The position numbers and the translations under genes are program-made. Of a stretch of 49,255 nucleotides of DNA, positions 1,249 to 10,188 are shown one piece after another. The notes beneath the pieces were generated by a model. It did no database searches, was not told the DNA's origin, and was given only the letters and a program-made list of their open reading frames with translations. The stretch spans positions 1 to 49,255 of the forward strand of contig CAUJDF010000046.1 in NCBI GenBank assembly GCA_963169045.1. The letters run 5' to 3'. Numbering within the stretch: position 1 is the first letter of the stretch; each line of letters opens with the position of its first letter. This DNA comes from Myxococcota bacterium. GTDB lineage: Bacteria > Myxococcota_A > Bradymonadia > UBA7976 > UBA1532.

Positions 1249-2058
1249 ATGACGAACGCGACGACGCCCCTCTGGGACCGCGACCAGTACACGCCCGGCG
1301 GCGGCGCGGCGCGCGTGCGCCTCTTCTGCTTCGCGCGGCGCCCGCTGCGCGACGACCCGCCGCTCGTCGCCGAGACCTACGGCATCCCGTCGGCGGAGGC
1401 GATCCGCGACGCCGACGTGCGCACGGTGGCGTGGGGCGACGACCCGACGTGGTTCGACGCCTGGCGCGGCGGGCCGCTGCGCGCGGTGGCCGCGCACCAG
1501 ATCGGGCTCGACCACCTCGCGCTCGACGAGGCGACCTACTGCCACTCGATCGACATCGCCCGCGACGACCCGCGCGACCTCGGGTACCTGCAGGGCGCGT
1601 GGGGCATCGCGCAGTGCCTCGTCGACCGCGGCGTCACCACCATCCTCGACCTCGCGGCGGCGCGCTGGCACCGCGCCCGCGACGTGCGCGCCTGGCCGGC
1701 GGGGCGCGCGTTCGACGTCGACCGCGAGATCTGGATCGTCGCCGACGGCCCGCTCGTCCACACGCGGGGCTTGTCGAAGTTCGGGCGGCCCGACCTGCTC
1801 GTGCCCGACGTGGAGCCGGCGGCGCGCGACCGCGCGGCGATGGTCCTGCGCTCGCTCGCGACGGCGCTGGCGAAGGGGCGCGTAATGCGCGCGGGCGAGA
1901 CGGCGACGGTGGGCGACAGCGCGATGATGCGCCTGTTGCCCTACCTGCCCGGGATCGAGCTGCCGGAGGTGCACCTCGACAACCCCGGCCTCGTGCTCGC
2001 CGACGCCGACGGCGGGCCGGGCATCGGCGGCGTGCTGCGGTCACTCCAGCGGCACTGA
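1249..2058 (+). CDS. Conserved hypothetical protein (DUF4261-like)
   Basis: A 269-residue soluble protein without signal peptide or membrane segment. The in-frame reading extends far upstream, but that part is Arg-rich shadow sequence; the ATG at 1249 begins the region with normal composition and sits just after a -10-like box. A segment near residues 165-180 (HTRGLSKFGRPDLLV) resembles the conserved block of DUF4261-type proteins, whose function is unknown. No catalytic motif is evident. The 3' end overlaps the convergent MscS gene by 18 bp. The family assignment is a recollection from one motif and is tentative. Confidence 0.75.
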   Translation: MTNATTPLWDRDQYTPGGGAARVRLFCFARRPLRDDPPLVAETYGIPSAEAIRDADVRTVAWGDDPTWFDAWRGGPLRAVAAHQIGLDHLALDEATYCHSIDIARDDPRDLGYLQGAWGIAQCLVDRGVTTILDLAAARWHRARDVRAWPAGRAFDVDREIWIVADGPLVHTRGLSKFGRPDLLVPDVEPAARDRAAMVLRSLATALAKGRVMRAGETATVGDSAMMRLLPYLPGIELPEVHLDNPGLVLADADGGPGIGGVLRSLQRH

Positions 2059-2907
2059 CCGGGGCGCGAGCTCGACCACCTCCGGCCCCTCGGCGGGCGC
2101 GGCGTCGACGGCGCGGACGAGGCGCGCGGGCGGCAGGATGCCGGCGCGCCGGAAGCCCTCGAGCACGCGCTCGGTCACGTCGGTCACGAGGTCCTCTTCG
2201 TAGCGCACGTCGACCACGTACACCTTCGCGCGCAGCCGCACGGCGAAGTACTCGTTCTCGATGACCTGCTGCACCACGATCGTCCACGGCTGCGCCAGGT
2301 AGGCGTACCGGCACGAGGTGAGCGCCTCGGCGACGACGGCCTTGGCGGGCGCGACCGGCTGGTCCGCGCCGACGTGGAAGTCGATGCGGATGAGCATGTC
2401 GAGCTTGCCGGCGCTGCCGCTCGTGACGGTGTCGGTGAGGAAGCGGCTGTTGGGCACCGTCACGAGGCAGTCGTCGAGCGTGACGAGGCGCACCGTGCGC
2501 AGGCCGATGTCGACGACCTCGCCATAGTGGTCGCCGAAGCGGATGCGGTCGCCCACGCTGAACGGCTTGTCGATCAGCAGGATGACGCCGGCCACGACCG
2601 AGGTCGCGAGGTCCTTGAAGGCGATGCCGAGCGTGACGGCGAGCGTGCCGCCGAGCGCCAGCAGCATCTGGTCGGTGAGGTTGAACGACAGCAGGACGGC
2701 CGCGCTGATGGCGCCCGCGTACAGCGCGAAGCGCAGCAGCGTGCCGATCTGCTTGATCAGGAGGCGGCGGTCGGTGAACCGCTCCCCGAGCCGCTCGAGG
2801 AAGCGCGTGACCACCTGGACGACGAACCAGGCGCACGCCAGCACGACGAGCGACGTCAGCAGGCCGCTGTAGCTGAGGAGCTCGAACAGGTTCGTGGCGC
2901 CGTTCAT
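2041..2907 (-). CDS. MscS-family mechanosensitive channel
   Basis: Small-conductance mechanosensitive channel subunit of 288 residues, close to E. coli MscS in size. It has membrane segments near residues 12-32 and 55-75 and a pore-lining TM3 at about 83-112, rich in Gly and Ala. The conserved junction IDKPFSVGD follows, then the beta domain with VPNS near residues 151-154 and a C-terminal alpha/beta domain. The expected role is ion and solute release across the inner membrane when tension rises. It starts 5 bp after the stop of the large ATPase gene upstream, so the two should form one operon, an unusual partnership for MscS. Family assignment is secure. Confidence 0.93.
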   Translation of the reverse strand: MNGATNLFELLSYSGLLTSLVVLACAWFVVQVVTRFLERLGERFTDRRLLIKQIGTLLRFALYAGAISAAVLLSFNLTDQMLLALGGTLAVTLGIAFKDLATSVVAGVILLIDKPFSVGDRIRFGDHYGEVVDIGLRTVRLVTLDDCLVTVPNSRFLTDTVTSGSAGKLDMLIRIDFHVGADQPVAPAKAVVAEALTSCRYAYLAQPWTIVVQQVIENEYFAVRLRAKVYVVDVRYEEDLVTDVTERVLEGFRRAGILPPARLVRAVDAAPAEGPEVVELAPRSVPLE

Positions 2908-2912
2908 CCGTC

Positions 2913-5900
2913 TCAGCTCTCGTAGATGAGGTGCTTGCGCGCCAGGAAGCCGGTGACGGCGCGGAACCAGCGCGTGGTCAGGTGGTAGGCGCCGTCGCGC
3001 GGGTCGATCCGCAGGATGCCGCGGCGCGCCAGCGCCTCGAAGGTCAGCTCGCACCGGTCGACCGGGTAGCCGAGGCTGGCCGCCGCCTCGCCCGGGGTCG
3101 CGTGGTCGTGCAGGACCACCGCCTGCAGCAGGAAACGCTCCTGCTCGGAGAGCGCCTCGAGCGCGGCCTCGCTCGGGGCCTCGAAGAGCCGCACCCGGAG
3201 CCGGCGCTCGCCGTCGGGCACGAGCGACCGCAACCAGAAGTGCAATGCGATCCGGGGGTTGCCCGCCGCATAGTCCCACAGGAGGCGCCGGTACCGCTCC
3301 GCCGTGCGCGCCGCCTCGAGCTCGAGCTCGCCGGGGGCGGCCGCGTCGTCGAGCAGGTCCTCGTAGGTGACGGTGAAACCCGCCTCGGACATGCGGCGAT
3401 CGATGAGCGCGCCGATGTCCTCCTCGCTCCAGCCGTCGAGCCGCAGCACGCGATCGAACGGGTTCAGGCCGCGGAAGGCGCGGCGCACGTAAGCGTGGGG
3501 GTAGGTGGCGAACGCGCAGACCCAGAAGTGGTGACCGGCCGTGCGGCCGACGACCTCGGCGAAGGCGGCGTAGCCGTCGAGGCCGCCGAGGGCGCGCAGC
3601 ACGAGATTGTGGGCGTGCTCGACGAGCAGGAGCGCCGGCGGGCGGGCCCGGAGCGCGTCGGCGAGCCCCTTCGGCGTGCTGGCGGGACCGACGCCGAGGG
3701 CCTCGCCGAGCCAGGCGAGCACGTCTCTCGGGCGCAGGAGGCGCGCGTCGATCGAGAGCTCGACGTGGGGCACGTCGGCGACCCGCTCGGCCAGCCGCCG
3801 CATCCACATCGACTTGCCGCACCCGTGCTCGCCCGTGAGCGCGAGGGCGCTCTCCCCCTCGCCGCCGTCGCGCCAGCGCTCCACCAGCGCGACGGCCTCG
3901 CCGAGCCCCGGGAAGTGGTCGACGGCGAGGTCGCCGGCGGGGCCCTCGTCGAGCATCGCGCACAGCTCGGGCGGCAGCGCGGAGATGTCGGTCGAGCCGT
4001 GGCCGCGCGCCTGCGCGCTCTTCTGGAGCTGCCGGCGGAACAGGAACGCCAATGCCCTGCGTGTGCGGTCGAAGCGGAGCGCCAGGTCGCGCACGTAGCC
4101 GCCGACGCCCTTCACCGCGACGAAGCCGAGCGCCGCCGTGGCGACGCCGAACGACTCGAGGCGGCCGCGCCCGGCCCGCCGCATGCGCGCCGCGAGCCAG
4201 CCGCCGGGGTGCATGCGCAGGTACGCGGCCTCGATGCTGTCGCGCCAGCGCGCGAGCAGCACCACGGCGATGACCGCGAAGCCGAGCCACGTGAAGTCGA
4301 CCGCGAGCCGGTAGAGGTAGCCCTCGCCGACGAGCGCCGCCGAGAGGGTCGTGAAGGTGTAGACGGCGAAGGCGTAGCCGCCGGCGAGCTCGAACGAGCG
4401 CAGGATGCGGCGGCTCAGCGCGACGGTTACGTCGACGCGCCGGGTGCGCGCCGCCGACGTCAGGGCGTGGTGCAGGGTGCCGAGCACGACGCGATACCAG
4501 GCGTACGCCAGCAGCAGCGTCTCGAGGAGCTGCGCCTCCGGCAGCGCGTCCCCGGCGTCGATCGCCGCGAAGAGCAGCTTCAGCCCCACGATGGCGAGGA
4601 GGGGCCGGTCGATCGCGGCGAGCAGGCCGATCCAGCCGGCGAACAGGGCGCGGTGGGGCGAGCGGGCGACGAGGGCGCGCAGGCCGGCGAGGAGCCGCAG
4701 CCGGCGGCGGGCGAGGACGAACCACGCCGCGATCACGAGCAGGAACTGCAGCGTGCGGCCCGTCGTCTCGCCGAGCGAGAGCGCGTCGCCGAGGCGCTGC
4801 TTGAGGGCGGCGAAGACGGCGCGGCGCTGGTGCGGGTACCAGCGCGCGGCGAGCTCCACGAACCGCAGCTCGCGGAGGAGCTGGGCGACGCCGTCGCGGC
4901 CCAGGCCGAGCACACGATCCCGGTCGTCCTCGGCGAGGCGGGGCAGCAGCGCTTGGTGGAACGCGTTGAGGTCGAAGGCGCGCTCGGCGGCGGCGCTCGC
5001 GTGCGTCCACCGCGTCTCGCGCAGGCGCACCGCCAGGGTCTCGTGCTCCGCGCGGGCGCGCTCGAGCGCGGCGCCCAGGGACTCGCGAGAGGTCGCGAGC
5101 GCCGGATCGGAGAACGTCGCCGCGCCGGGGTCGACCGTGGGCTCGTAGGGCGCGTGCGACAGCGGCCCTTCGATCTCGGTCAGAGCCGCGGAGAACGCGG
5201 CGAGCGCGTCGGCCAGCAGCCCGCCCGCCTCGGCGTACAGGCGCCGGGCCTCGTCGGGGCCGGCGGCGTCCGCGCGGCGGCGCAGCGCGGCGAGCGCGTC
5301 CTGGTGTTGGCGCAGCGCGGCGGCGGCCTGCTCGCTGGCGGTCGCCAGCGCGGCCTTCTGCTCCGCGTAGGCGGTCAGCTTCGCCTCGACGCGCGCCCGC
5401 TCGTCGGCCAGCGCGCGCGCGGCCTCGGTGCGGGCCGCCAGCGCCGCCTCGAGCGCCAGGCGGCGGGCCTCCTCGGCGCGCTGGCGCTCCGACTCCGCCT
5501 GGGCGCGCTCCCGCGCCGCCGCTTCCTGCGCGAGCGCAAGGCGACGCTGCTCCGTCTCGCGCGCGAGCAACGCCTCGCGGGCCGCGCGCGGCTGCTCGAG
5601 GACGCCCAGACGCAGGCGCGCGCGCTCGCGCTCCAGCGTCAGGATCTCGAGCGCGAGCGCCGGGCTCTCGTCGGGTCGTGCGGCGGCCGCGTCGAGGCGC
5701 GCGCCGATCTCGTCGATGCGCGCCCGGAGCAGCCGCGCGTGGGCCGCGACCGCGACCTCGTCGAGCAGGTCGACGTCGAAGAGCTGGCGGAGCGACCGGG
5801 TGCCCTCGCCGAGCGCGGCCTGGCGCAGCGCGGCGACGTCGGCGGCGAGCCGGTCCCGCGCGGCCGGATCCGCCTCGGGCAGCTCGAGCGCCGGGGCGGC

Positions 5901-6053
5901 GTCCGGCGCCGCGGCGGTGCCGGCGTCCGCCGCCTCGGCGGGAGCCGCGTCCGGCGACCCCGCCGCGGGCGCCAGCCCGAACGCCAACAGGAGCGCGAGC
6001 GCCCGGGCGCCCGCGATGGAGCATGGGCGCCGTCGCGTCATCAGGAGTCGCAT
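2913..6053 (-). CDS. Membrane-anchored coiled-coil P-loop ATPase, MscS partner
   Basis: A 1046-residue multi-part membrane protein. In order: a hydrophobic signal-like N terminus (about 1-32), an Ala/Asp/Pro linker, a long Arg/Glu/Ala coiled coil (about 125-260), a second helical stretch, roughly six membrane segments (about 430-660), then a cytoplasmic nucleotide-binding domain. Walker A is GEHGCGKS near 739-746. The strand expected to be Walker B reads LLLVEHAHNL near 805, so the usual DE is EH, which may weaken hydrolysis. The C terminus looks like a winged helix (ending KHLIYES). The layout recalls MscK-like N-terminal regions but carries an ATPase, with the pore encoded by the next gene. 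ATG 6053 was preferred to TTG 6110, which would run into the divergent gene; ATG 6041 is also possible. Function unknown. Confidence 0.85.
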   Translation of the reverse strand: MRLLMTRRRPCSIAGARALALLLAFGLAPAAGSPDAAPAEAADAGTAAAPDAAPALELPEADPAARDRLAADVAALRQAALGEGTRSLRQLFDVDLLDEVAVAAHARLLRARIDEIGARLDAAAARPDESPALALEILTLERERARLRLGVLEQPRAAREALLARETEQRRLALAQEAAARERAQAESERQRAEEARRLALEAALAARTEAARALADERARVEAKLTAYAEQKAALATASEQAAAALRQHQDALAALRRRADAAGPDEARRLYAEAGGLLADALAAFSAALTEIEGPLSHAPYEPTVDPGAATFSDPALATSRESLGAALERARAEHETLAVRLRETRWTHASAAAERAFDLNAFHQALLPRLAEDDRDRVLGLGRDGVAQLLRELRFVELAARWYPHQRRAVFAALKQRLGDALSLGETTGRTLQFLLVIAAWFVLARRRLRLLAGLRALVARSPHRALFAGWIGLLAAIDRPLLAIVGLKLLFAAIDAGDALPEAQLLETLLLAYAWYRVVLGTLHHALTSAARTRRVDVTVALSRRILRSFELAGGYAFAVYTFTTLSAALVGEGYLYRLAVDFTWLGFAVIAVVLLARWRDSIEAAYLRMHPGGWLAARMRRAGRGRLESFGVATAALGFVAVKGVGGYVRDLALRFDRTRRALAFLFRRQLQKSAQARGHGSTDISALPPELCAMLDEGPAGDLAVDHFPGLGEAVALVERWRDGGEGESALALTGEHGCGKSMWMRRLAERVADVPHVELSIDARLLRPRDVLAWLGEALGVGPASTPKGLADALRARPPALLLVEHAHNLVLRALGGLDGYAAFAEVVGRTAGHHFWVCAFATYPHAYVRRAFRGLNPFDRVLRLDGWSEEDIGALIDRRMSEAGFTVTYEDLLDDAAAPGELELEAARTAERYRRLLWDYAAGNPRIALHFWLRSLVPDGERRLRVRLFEAPSEAALEALSEQERFLLQAVVLHDHATPGEAAASLGYPVDRCELTFEALARRGILRIDPRDGAYHLTTRWFRAVTGFLARKHLIYES

Positions 6054-7102: not shown

Positions 7103-7119
7103 CCGGCCCGGTCGCCGGG

Positions 7120-7149
7120 TTGGCGCCGCGGGGCGTTTGCGCGTACAAC
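7120..7149 (+). promoter_or_regulatory. Putative promoter of the Ser/Thr kinase gene
   Basis: TTGGCG at 7120-7125, 18 nt spacer, TACAAC at 7144-7149, then 9 nt to the ATG at 7159 with no Shine-Dalgarno sequence. The -10 box is identical to that proposed before the gene at 1249. This suggests a leaderless or near-leaderless mRNA. Confidence 0.4.
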
Positions 7150-7158
7150 GATTCCCCG

Positions 7159-10100
7159 ATGAGCGGCGGCGATCTTTCGGACAAGGGCGGCAAGGGCGGC
7201 ATCGACAAGCAGCTCGAGGGGCGCCTCTTCGATCTGCTCGAGACGCGCGGGCGCGTGCGCCTGGGCGTGCTCGTGCAGCTGCGGCGGCGCAGCCGGGCGG
7301 CGCACATCACGCTGCTCCAGGCGGCGATCGACGCCGGGCAGGTCGACGAAGGCGTCGCTGCGGAGATCGCGGCGGCGGCGGGCATCCAGGCCGCCGGCCT
7401 CGGGCGACGGGCCAGGCCTGCGGATCCCGCCATCCGCGAGACGGCGCCGCAGGAGGCCATCCCCCTGCCGCCGCCGGTGCCGGTCGTCGTCACGAGCAGC
7501 GCGCCGCCGCCCGTGGTCGTCGATCCATCCGCCTTCGTCGCCTCCGCCGTGACGGCCACCGAGCTCGAGGCGCTCGCGCCCGACGACTCGGTCGAGGAGA
7601 CGGGGCTCGGCGACATCGACGAGATCGACGCCGCGCTCCTCGAGATCGAGGCGCTGCTGGGCGACGACGACCTCATCTCCGACGACGACGGCGACGACCT
7701 CGGGGGCGATCCGAACGACGACACCGGCGCCCACGAAGCGCTGTTCGACGACGAGGACGATCCGAGCACGGCGGGCACCGATCCGCCGCGCCTCGGCCTC
7801 GACACGCCGCGCAGCGAGCGGGTCGACACGGCGCCGCCGCACGTGACGACGATCGCCGGCGTGCAGACGGACGACGCCGACCTGCCGCCGCTGCCGGCGT
7901 CGGGCCTGCAATACGCGCTCGGCCAGGAGCTGGGCCGCGGTGGCATGGGCCAGGTGCTCGAGGCGGAGGATGTGAACCTCGGCCGGCCGGTGGCGCTCAA
8001 GCTGCTGATCGAGCAGGACGACCCGGCGCTGAGCCTGCGCTTCATCGACGAGGCGCGCGTGCAGGGCCAGCTGCAGCACCCGAACGTGCCGCCGGTGTAC
8101 GAGCTCGGACGCCTCGCCGACGGGCGCCTCTTCTTCGCGATGCGGCGCATCGACGGCCGCACGCTGCGCGACGTCATCGAGGACCTGCGCGCCGAAGAAC
8201 CCGAGGTCGTGCGCGCCTACGGCCCCGTGCGCCTGCTGATGGTCTTCGGCCAGGTCTGCCGCGCCATCGCCTACGCCCACAGCCGGGGCGTGATCCACCG
8301 CGACCTCAAGCCCGACAACATCATGCTCGGGGAGTTCGGCGAGGTCACCGTGATGGACTGGGGCCTCGCCAAGGTCGTCGGCTCGGCCGGCGGTCCGGCG
8401 GTGGCGACGACGCGCGCCCGGGGCGAGGGCCGCTTCTCGACGCTGGCGGGCGAGGTCACCGGCACGCCGCAGTACATGCCGCCCGAACAGGCCGACGGCC
8501 GCGTCGACGAGCTCGGCCCGCACAGCGACATCTACAGCCTCGGCGCCGTGCTCTACGAGCTCTTGACGCTCGAGCCGCCGTTCGACGGGTCGACGGCGCG
8601 CGCCGTGCGCGAGGCGGTGGTCAACGACCGCCTCGTGCCGCCGAGCGAGCGCGCGCCGCAGCGCCCCATCCCGCACGTCATCGAGCAGCTGTGCCTGCAC
8701 TGCCTGCGCAAGCGCGCCAAGGACCGCCCGCCCGGCGCCGCCTGGATCGCCGCGCGCATCGACGAGTTCCTGGAGGGCGAGCAGGACCGCGCCCGCAAGG
8801 AGGCCGAGCGCACGCGCCTCGTCGCCGACGGCGCCGCTTCGGCGGCGGCGTACTACGACGGCTACGAGGAGCACCGCAAGCTGCAGCTCAAGACGGCGCT
8901 CATGGCGGCGCGCATCGATCCGTGGGCCTCGATCGAGGAGCGCCGCGAGCTGTGGAAGCAGCAGGATGCCGAGACGACGGCGCGCCTGGCGACGGCTCGG
9001 CACCTCTCCGCGGCGCTCGCCGCCTACCACGCGGCGCTCGGCGTCGACGGCGACCACGCGCCCACGCGCCACGCGCTGCGGGAGCTGTACTACAGCGCCT
9101 TCGAGGCGGCGGAGCGCGAGCGCGACGCGGTGCTGATGGCCCACTACGAGAGCCTGGTGAAGGTCTTCGACGACGAGGGCACCTTCGCCGCGCGGCTGAA
9201 GGGCGACGGCCGGCTCGAGCTCGAGACGCAGCCGCGCGGCCTCAGCGGCACGCTGCTCCAGTACCAGCTGGTCGACCGCGTGCTGACGCCGAGCACGCCG
9301 CAACCGCTGGGCCAGATGCCGGTGCGCCAGGACCCCATCCCCATGGGCAGCTACCTGCTGCGGCTGCACGCGCCCGGCCTCTCCGACGCCGCCGTCCCCG
9401 TCTACATCAGCCGCCAGGAGCAGGTGCGACTGCGGCTGCGCATCTTCCCCGACGCGCTCGTCGGCCAGGGGTTCGCGCATGTGGTCGGCGGCCCGACGCG
9501 GCTCGGCGGCGACCCGCTCGCGCAGCTGGCGCAGCCGGCGCGCGTGGTCGAGATCGACGACTTCTTCATCGCGCGTCGCCCGGTCAGCGCCGGGGAGTAC
9601 CTCGAGTTCCTCCGCGACCTGGCGCTCGAGATCGGCGTCGAGCGCGCGATGGCCTCGGCGCCGCGCGGCTCCCCCGGCGGCCCGCCCGTGTGGCCGATCG
9701 GCGACGACGGCCTGCCGGCGCTGCCCGAGCGCGAGAGCCCCGACTGGCCCGTGGTGAACGTGAGCTGCGACGACGCCGAGGCGTACTGCGAGTGGCTGAC
9801 GTTGCGCACGGGGCGCCCGCACCGCCTGCCCGACGAGGCGGAGTGGGAGAAGGCCGCGCGCGGCGCCGACGGCCGCCTCTTCCCCTGGGGCGACCACTGG
9901 GAGCCGACGTTCTGCCACATGGGCATCAGCCGCGCGGGGCCGCCGTCGCGCGGGCCGTGCGGGGCGTTCCCGACCGACGTGAGCCCCTACGGCGTGGTGG
10001 ACCTGGCCGGCGGCGTGACGGAGTGGACGCGCACCTGGCTCGACGAGGGCCGGACGCAGCGCGTGGTGAAGGGCGGCAACTGGGCGAGCGGGCCGACGGA

Positions 10101-10188
10101 GTGCCGGGCGGCGAGCCGCTTCAGTCAGCCCGTGGACCAGGTCCTGCCGACGATCGGCTTCCGGGTGGCCCGGGACGCGCCCTCCTGA
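7159..10188 (+). CDS. Ser/Thr protein kinase with FGE/SUMF1-like C-terminal domain
   Basis: A soluble 1009-residue bacterial Hanks-type kinase. An N-terminal helical region is followed by a Pro-rich and strongly acidic linker (about residues 95-240). The kinase domain spans about 250-545: glycine loop GRGGMG at 259, catalytic Lys281, HRDLKPDN from 380, and DWG instead of DFG at 400-402, a variant seen in many bacterial kinases, so activity is likely. A helical bridge and beta-rich segment lead to a formylglycine-generating-enzyme-like domain (about 785-1005) with RLPDEAEWEKAARG near 889 and IGFRVAR at the end. The first catalytic cysteine of true FGEs is missing, so this domain is more likely a binding or sensing module. 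No membrane segment is seen. No phosphatase or substrate gene is adjacent. Confidence 0.93.
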   Translation: MSGGDLSDKGGKGGIDKQLEGRLFDLLETRGRVRLGVLVQLRRRSRAAHITLLQAAIDAGQVDEGVAAEIAAAAGIQAAGLGRRARPADPAIRETAPQEAIPLPPPVPVVVTSSAPPPVVVDPSAFVASAVTATELEALAPDDSVEETGLGDIDEIDAALLEIEALLGDDDLISDDDGDDLGGDPNDDTGAHEALFDDEDDPSTAGTDPPRLGLDTPRSERVDTAPPHVTTIAGVQTDDADLPPLPASGLQYALGQELGRGGMGQVLEAEDVNLGRPVALKLLIEQDDPALSLRFIDEARVQGQLQHPNVPPVYELGRLADGRLFFAMRRIDGRTLRDVIEDLRAEEPEVVRAYGPVRLLMVFGQVCRAIAYAHSRGVIHRDLKPDNIMLGEFGEVTVMDWGLAKVVGSAGGPAVATTRARGEGRFSTLAGEVTGTPQYMPPEQADGRVDELGPHSDIYSLGAVLYELLTLEPPFDGSTARAVREAVVNDRLVPPSERAPQRPIPHVIEQLCLHCLRKRAKDRPPGAAWIAARIDEFLEGEQDRARKEAERTRLVADGAASAAAYYDGYEEHRKLQLKTALMAARIDPWASIEERRELWKQQDAETTARLATARHLSAALAAYHAALGVDGDHAPTRHALRELYYSAFEAAERERDAVLMAHYESLVKVFDDEGTFAARLKGDGRLELETQPRGLSGTLLQYQLVDRVLTPSTPQPLGQMPVRQDPIPMGSYLLRLHAPGLSDAAVPVYISRQEQVRLRLRIFPDALVGQGFAHVVGGPTRLGGDPLAQLAQPARVVEIDDFFIARRPVSAGEYLEFLRDLALEIGVERAMASAPRGSPGGPPVWPIGDDGLPALPERESPDWPVVNVSCDDAEAYCEWLTLRTGRPHRLPDEAEWEKAARGADGRLFPWGDHWEPTFCHMGISRAGPPSRGPCGAFPTDVSPYGVVDLAGGVTEWTRTWLDEGRTQRVVKGGNWASGPTECRAASRFSQPVDQVLPTIGFRVARDAPS

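Follow-up and report, generated by a model that had tools for sequence, protein, structure and literature searches.

Background

MscS channels are the textbook example of tension-gated valves. In the E. coli channel MscK (KefA), the channel core is surrounded by a peripheral bundle made up of TM1-6, and external potassium is needed in addition to tension (PMC9653487), which makes the statement in an earlier note on the DNA described here, that MscS channels are normally gated by tension alone, too strong. Other members of the superfamily also have a regulatory domain fused to their MscS pore, which in bCNG is a cyclic-nucleotide domain (PMC4560390).

We analysed a stretch of 49,255 nucleotides from a Myxococcota bacterium (contig CAUJDF010000046.1; hereafter the window), in which a gene for a large membrane ATPase directly precedes an MscS gene. 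Taken together, the two products resemble MscK in having a signal, a large and probably periplasmic helical domain, an MscS core and, probably, peripheral membrane helices. MscK is a single polypeptide without an ATPase, whereas the pore of the pair lies on a separate gene and belongs to another MscS clade; and an AAA+ domain with a winged helix follows the membrane domain of the ATPase at the point where MscK ends in its MscS core. The pair thus lacks the one-chain layout with a terminal MscS core that typifies the MscK family. In contrast to bCNG, the presumed regulator would be a separate AAA+ membrane protein. No description of the ATPase-MscS pair was found in a literature search that covered mainly openly accessible journal papers, suggesting that the pair may be undescribed, although MscS channels with added domains are already known.

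Results and discussion

A compact ATPase-MscS gene pair

The translated coordinates bear out the layout given in the earlier note, with a 1046-residue ATPase followed by a 288-residue MscS protein after a spacer of 5 bases (2908-2912), the MscS gene being the downstream one (Table 1). The ATPase occurs once in the 9.0 Mb source genome (G000), in which a count by Pfam profile yielded 6 MscS-type genes in 9 Mb. Elsewhere in the window, at about 7105-10188 on the (+) strand, an open frame displays protein-kinase motifs followed by an end resembling the formylglycine-generating enzyme, as read from its translation.

Table 1. Positions of the two genes and of the features recognised in their products (window coordinates)
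Feature	Position	Strand	Residues	Basis and remarks
ATPase gene, first of the pair	2913..6053	(-)	1046 aa	Start codon ATG at 6053, last base of stop codon at 2913; translation
Secretion-signal-like N terminus	5961..6053	(-)	1 to about 31	Hydropathy and model helix 14-26; putative cleavage site
Long helical/coiled-coil region	4779..5876	(-)	about 60-425	AlphaFold helix 156-262 (107 residues)
Membrane domain, MscK-like	4074..4772	(-)	about 428-660	Charge and hydropathy pattern; MscK match
AAA+ domain, Orc/Cdc6/TnsC-like	3174..3986	(-)	about 690-960	PF13401, E 5e-7; Foldseek and VIA-align matches
Walker A, GEHGCGKS	3810..3833	(-)	741-748	Sequence
Walker B acidic pair, E-H (GAGCAC)	3615..3620	(-)	812-813	Sequence; reads LLLVEHAHN
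C-terminal winged helix	2934..3167	(-)	about 963-1040	AlphaFold model
MscS gene, second of the pair	2041..2907	(-)	288 aa	Start codon ATG at 2907, last base of stop codon at 2041; translation
MscS beta domain	2422..2610	(-)	100-162	PF00924, E 4e-20

Constancy of the pairing

Relatives of the ATPase were gathered by similarity to the ATPase alone, their flanking regions were retrieved, and MscS was then sought in these flanks by profile; the loci derive mostly from metagenome assemblies. In the discovery set of 89 family loci, an MscS gene was directly downstream and on the same strand in 83, that is, in 83 of the 88 loci with room for a downstream gene, the locus lacking such room (L158) being left out. 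All 40 held-out loci with room showed the same arrangement, bringing the combined figure to 123 of 128 ATPase loci with enough downstream sequence, and none of the 11 generic AAA controls with room had MscS downstream. Given that the source genome carries merely 6 MscS genes in 9 Mb, an adjacency kept in 123 of 128 loci goes beyond chance. The question raised in the earlier note, whether the neighbour of such homologues is always MscS, can thus be answered with "nearly so", and we do not regard the few homologues without an adjacent MscS as overturning its proposal.

Apart from L158, the loci departing from the pattern fall into several situations. In L121 and L068 an MscS gene lies 3.6 and 2.1 kb further on, respectively, on the same strand; in L005 MscS is absent from the 705 bases left before the contig end; and in L134 it is absent downstream of the ATPase homologue. 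In L152 (1753-4254, (-) strand) the ATPase homologue is fused in frame to a C-terminal MscS part (E 1.5e-13) that is not called by Pfam and lacks the pore, and this may be genuine, may be what a deletion left behind, or may have arisen in assembly. A further apparent exception, L157, proved on follow-up to have MscS beside the ATPase. Two loci display two tandem MscS genes behind the ATPase (L045:6301-8195 of genome G047, and L227:7200-9043 on a Caulobacter plasmid), for which heteromeric channels are possible.

A reverse search with the window MscS protein against 57 related genomes gave a concordant picture: all matches down to E 7e-40 adjoin an ATPase homologue, one of them being a second tandem MscS, and matches of this strength are absent from those of the 57 genomes without the ATPase. 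Among the weaker matches, one (G052:C601) falls inside the clade of ATPase partners described below and its contig ends just upstream, while another (G042:C13) falls outside this clade. Together these observations constitute strong grounds for a functional link between the ATPase and MscS. A search for related loci with a single protein as query gave no match, and an alignment of mixed relatives contained no conserved stretch.

The MscS partner

The window MscS protein has the pore helix and beta-domain homology by which the MscS superfamily is recognised, and solved MscS-type channels match it in phmmer searches (best E 1.6e-13). Three hydropathy segments (7-40, 54-79 and 91-113) correspond to the three membrane helices expected ahead of the beta domain in this superfamily. 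We designate as type A those relatives in which the ATPase has a coiled coil and membrane domain like those of the window protein. In the tree, the MscS partners of type A form one clade with support of 100/95, separate from E. coli MscS, YnaI, YbdG and YbiO, from the MscK pores, and also from the other five MscS proteins of the window genome. A literal descent from a "split MscK", with the window MscS as its severed pore half, is rejected on account of this distinctness from MscK pores.

N-terminal and membrane regions of the ATPase

The AlphaFold model of the full ATPase (mean pLDDT 82.8), together with the hydropathy profile, upholds the signal-like N terminus and long coiled coil that the earlier note had read from the sequence. 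Of the roughly six membrane segments claimed there, five are clear, while a sixth (632-660) is marginal by its charge pattern. If the coiled coil is periplasmic, as is probable, and the AAA domain cytoplasmic, an odd number of spans is needed; five clear spans with a marginal sixth are compatible with this topology.

The membrane part probably is homologous to the peripheral helices of MscK. When a profile built from 32 type A sequences was compared with nine MscK-type proteins, residues 438-601 aligned with residues 514-676 of E. coli MscK with a probability of 95% on full inputs (P 2e-8 for that one comparison), against 2-6% for reversed controls and 0.1% for an antiporter decoy; with inputs trimmed to the membrane part alone the probability was 16-43%. 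Structural comparison of the membrane domain modelled in isolation (pLDDT 90.4) with MscK paired residues 408-604 with 487-680 at a Z of 6.5, tied with unrelated helical proteins, and the registers from profile and structure agree within three residues. A Foldseek search with the membrane domain alone returned no match at E <= 0.001; MscK ranked 41 with E 9.8, yet had the highest query TM-score of the list (0.32). The MscS_TM profile (PF12794) had no HMMER match in the source genome at E 0.001. The resemblance to the N terminus of large MscS homologues proposed earlier is thus backed by a consistent MscK register, while the scores behind it are weak.

The AAA+ and winged-helix module

The Pfam AAA_22 profile (PF13401) spans residues 733-820 above its cut-off, and in structure comparison Orc/Cdc6 and TnsC match the AAA+ domain together with the winged helix at a Z of about 14-15. 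The features of an Orc/Cdc6/TnsC-like ATPase, namely the AAA+ fold, Walker A and winged helix, are all present, in agreement with the nucleotide fold and winged-helix end suggested by the earlier note, and the MarR_2 profile was matched in the C-terminal winged helix of 7 of 32 relatives (best E 3.5e-7). Orc1/Cdc6 and TnsC act on DNA, whereas the domain described here, at an identity of 9-15% to them, is the tail of a membrane protein encoded beside a channel gene. We also noted a sub-threshold Pfam match to NACHT (E 0.013) in the window ATPase, while nSTAND profiles are matched by some of its relatives.

The Walker A lysine is retained in 40/46 type A sequences and in 22/30 sequences of a second group, type B, whose antiporter-like N terminus is described below. 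The canonical Walker B acidic pair is absent from the window ATPase, which has E-H in its place. Type A relatives mostly have D-D and the E-H pair is peculiar to the window sequence: the second position is D in 33/46 type A sequences and D or E in 35/46. As GAGCAC differs from GACGAC merely by a swap of two adjacent bases, a sequencing error may underlie the E-H pair, which may equally be a real variant. The 35 type A sequences that keep the second acid rule out that a non-hydrolysing Walker B is general to this type, and the hint of a non-hydrolysing role that the earlier note drew from this pair does not extend to the family. Given the retention of Walker residues in type A, nucleotide binding is likely in its members, judging from sequence. 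In type B the second acid survives in only 4/30, and many of its members are probably non-hydrolysing; with the Walker residues degenerate in much of this antiporter branch, ATP hydrolysis cannot be general.

Variants of the module

Across the variants, the AAA plus winged-helix module and the MscS gene are constant, and it is the N-terminal membrane part that varies; MscS is downstream in all of them save for the loci listed above. Type B proteins (L059-L063, L065-L068, L133, L137, L143-L156), which have mostly lost the catalytic residues, begin with a Na/H-exchanger domain (PF00999, E down to 5e-22), here termed KefB-type, followed by a long soluble region and the AAA plus winged-helix module, with the MscS gene next. 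This exchanger domain is shared with the KefB/KefC antiporters, but the C terminus of known Kef proteins is a nucleotide-binding RCK (TrkA-N) domain where type B has its AAA+ module, and we know of no pairing of them with MscS. In L148 (4574-9775) and L157 (4136-8968), the AAA module is fused instead to a domain of the amino acid permease type (PF00324, E about 1e-45; possibly SLC12-like), and an MscS-like gene comes directly after it in both.

Functional implications

On balance, we lean towards the two genes forming one module, in which an MscS-type osmotic release channel would be served by a dedicated AAA+ regulatory subunit. From sequence we infer that the ATPase may bind MscS and that nucleotide may control gating. 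Export of the ATPase would place its coiled coil in the periplasm, and its MscK-like membrane bundle would lie beside the MscS heptamer much as the peripheral helices of MscK sit around their own core. The cytoplasmic AAA+ and winged-helix module would dock on the cytoplasmic cage of MscS, and its nucleotide state or ring assembly would set how easily tension opens the pore. In the sister branches the place of the membrane sensor would be taken by a cotransporter of the permease type or by a KefB-type cation/proton antiporter. As the sensor is swapped for transporters there, the shared theme would be to couple solute release both to nucleotide state and to ion or osmotic state. More tentatively, and a little short of an even chance, we propose that the entire family is an undescribed class of two-component osmotic valves. 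In these, the nucleotide state of an AAA+ ATPase, which carries an MscK-like sensor, a KefB-type antiporter or a permease-type cotransporter as its N-terminal part, would govern a dedicated MscS pore.

Adjacency alone can mean co-expression without contact, and the pair might thus be co-transcribed osmotic or ion-balance proteins sharing only their regulation; the winged helix, which resembles MarR-type and Orc-type domains, might even act on DNA while tethered to the membrane. Against this, the adjacency is kept across phyla, the MscS partners form a dedicated clade and the two genes are absent together, all favouring a closer coupling, and winged helices often have a structural role in AAA+ and STAND proteins; we therefore consider shared regulation alone unlikely. 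A STAND/NLR-like switch, in which N-terminal sensing would lead to oligomerisation on nucleotide exchange and MscS would be the effector that depolarises or empties the cell in defence or programmed death, seems to us no more probable. The nSTAND and NACHT profile matches of some relatives, the plant NLRs among the weaker structure matches, and the variable N-terminal modules on a constant NTPase do recall the STAND design. But the variable part consists of ion transporters or an MscK-like bundle rather than ligand-binding repeats; PADLOC yields merely a coiled-coil match (E 0.27) for the ATPase and none for MscS; and the wide, vertical-looking inheritance with usually one or two copies per genome would be unlike that of defence islands.

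We rate as slightly less probable still an assembly or quality-control factor, that is, an AAA+ protein that would insert, assemble or remove the MscS heptamer instead of gating it. AAA+ proteins often are remodelling factors, the AAA domains of membrane FtsH are among the structure matches, and separate genes with tight translational coupling would suit a dedicated chaperone; however, the nearest folds are of the initiator type (Orc/Cdc6, TnsC) rather than unfoldases, and the fact that complete transporters also carry this module in fused form is a better fit for regulation.

If the regulatory-subunit reading is true, many bacteria would couple osmotic release to their nucleotide or ion state by means of a separate subunit, and the natural separation of pore and regulator would make the role of the large N-terminal parts of MscK-like channels directly testable. 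It would also offer a candidate function for proteins annotated merely as "ATP-binding protein" or "AAA family ATPase".

Phyletic distribution

Of 329 genomes sampled from the phylum, 106 contain the ATPase at E <= 1e-20. Named carriers among the relatives are Lujinxingia vulgaris and assemblies of Lujinxingiaceae and Bradymonadaceae, so that an uncultured relative of the Bradymonadales is the most likely source of the window. The held-out set contained three alphaproteobacterial plasmid records: in those of Caulobacter sp. NIBR2454 and of Novosphingobium pentaromativorans US6-1 (plasmid pLA3) the NCBI annotation itself lists an ATPase and then a mechanosensitive channel gene, and in that of Novosphingobium sp. 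PP1Y MscS was found beside the ATPase by profile. Among the loci retrieved, L164 (2010-6647, (-) strand) carries a frame of 1546 aa, unrelated to the pair, that combines a protein kinase, a possible cyclase remnant, AAA_16 and TPR repeats.
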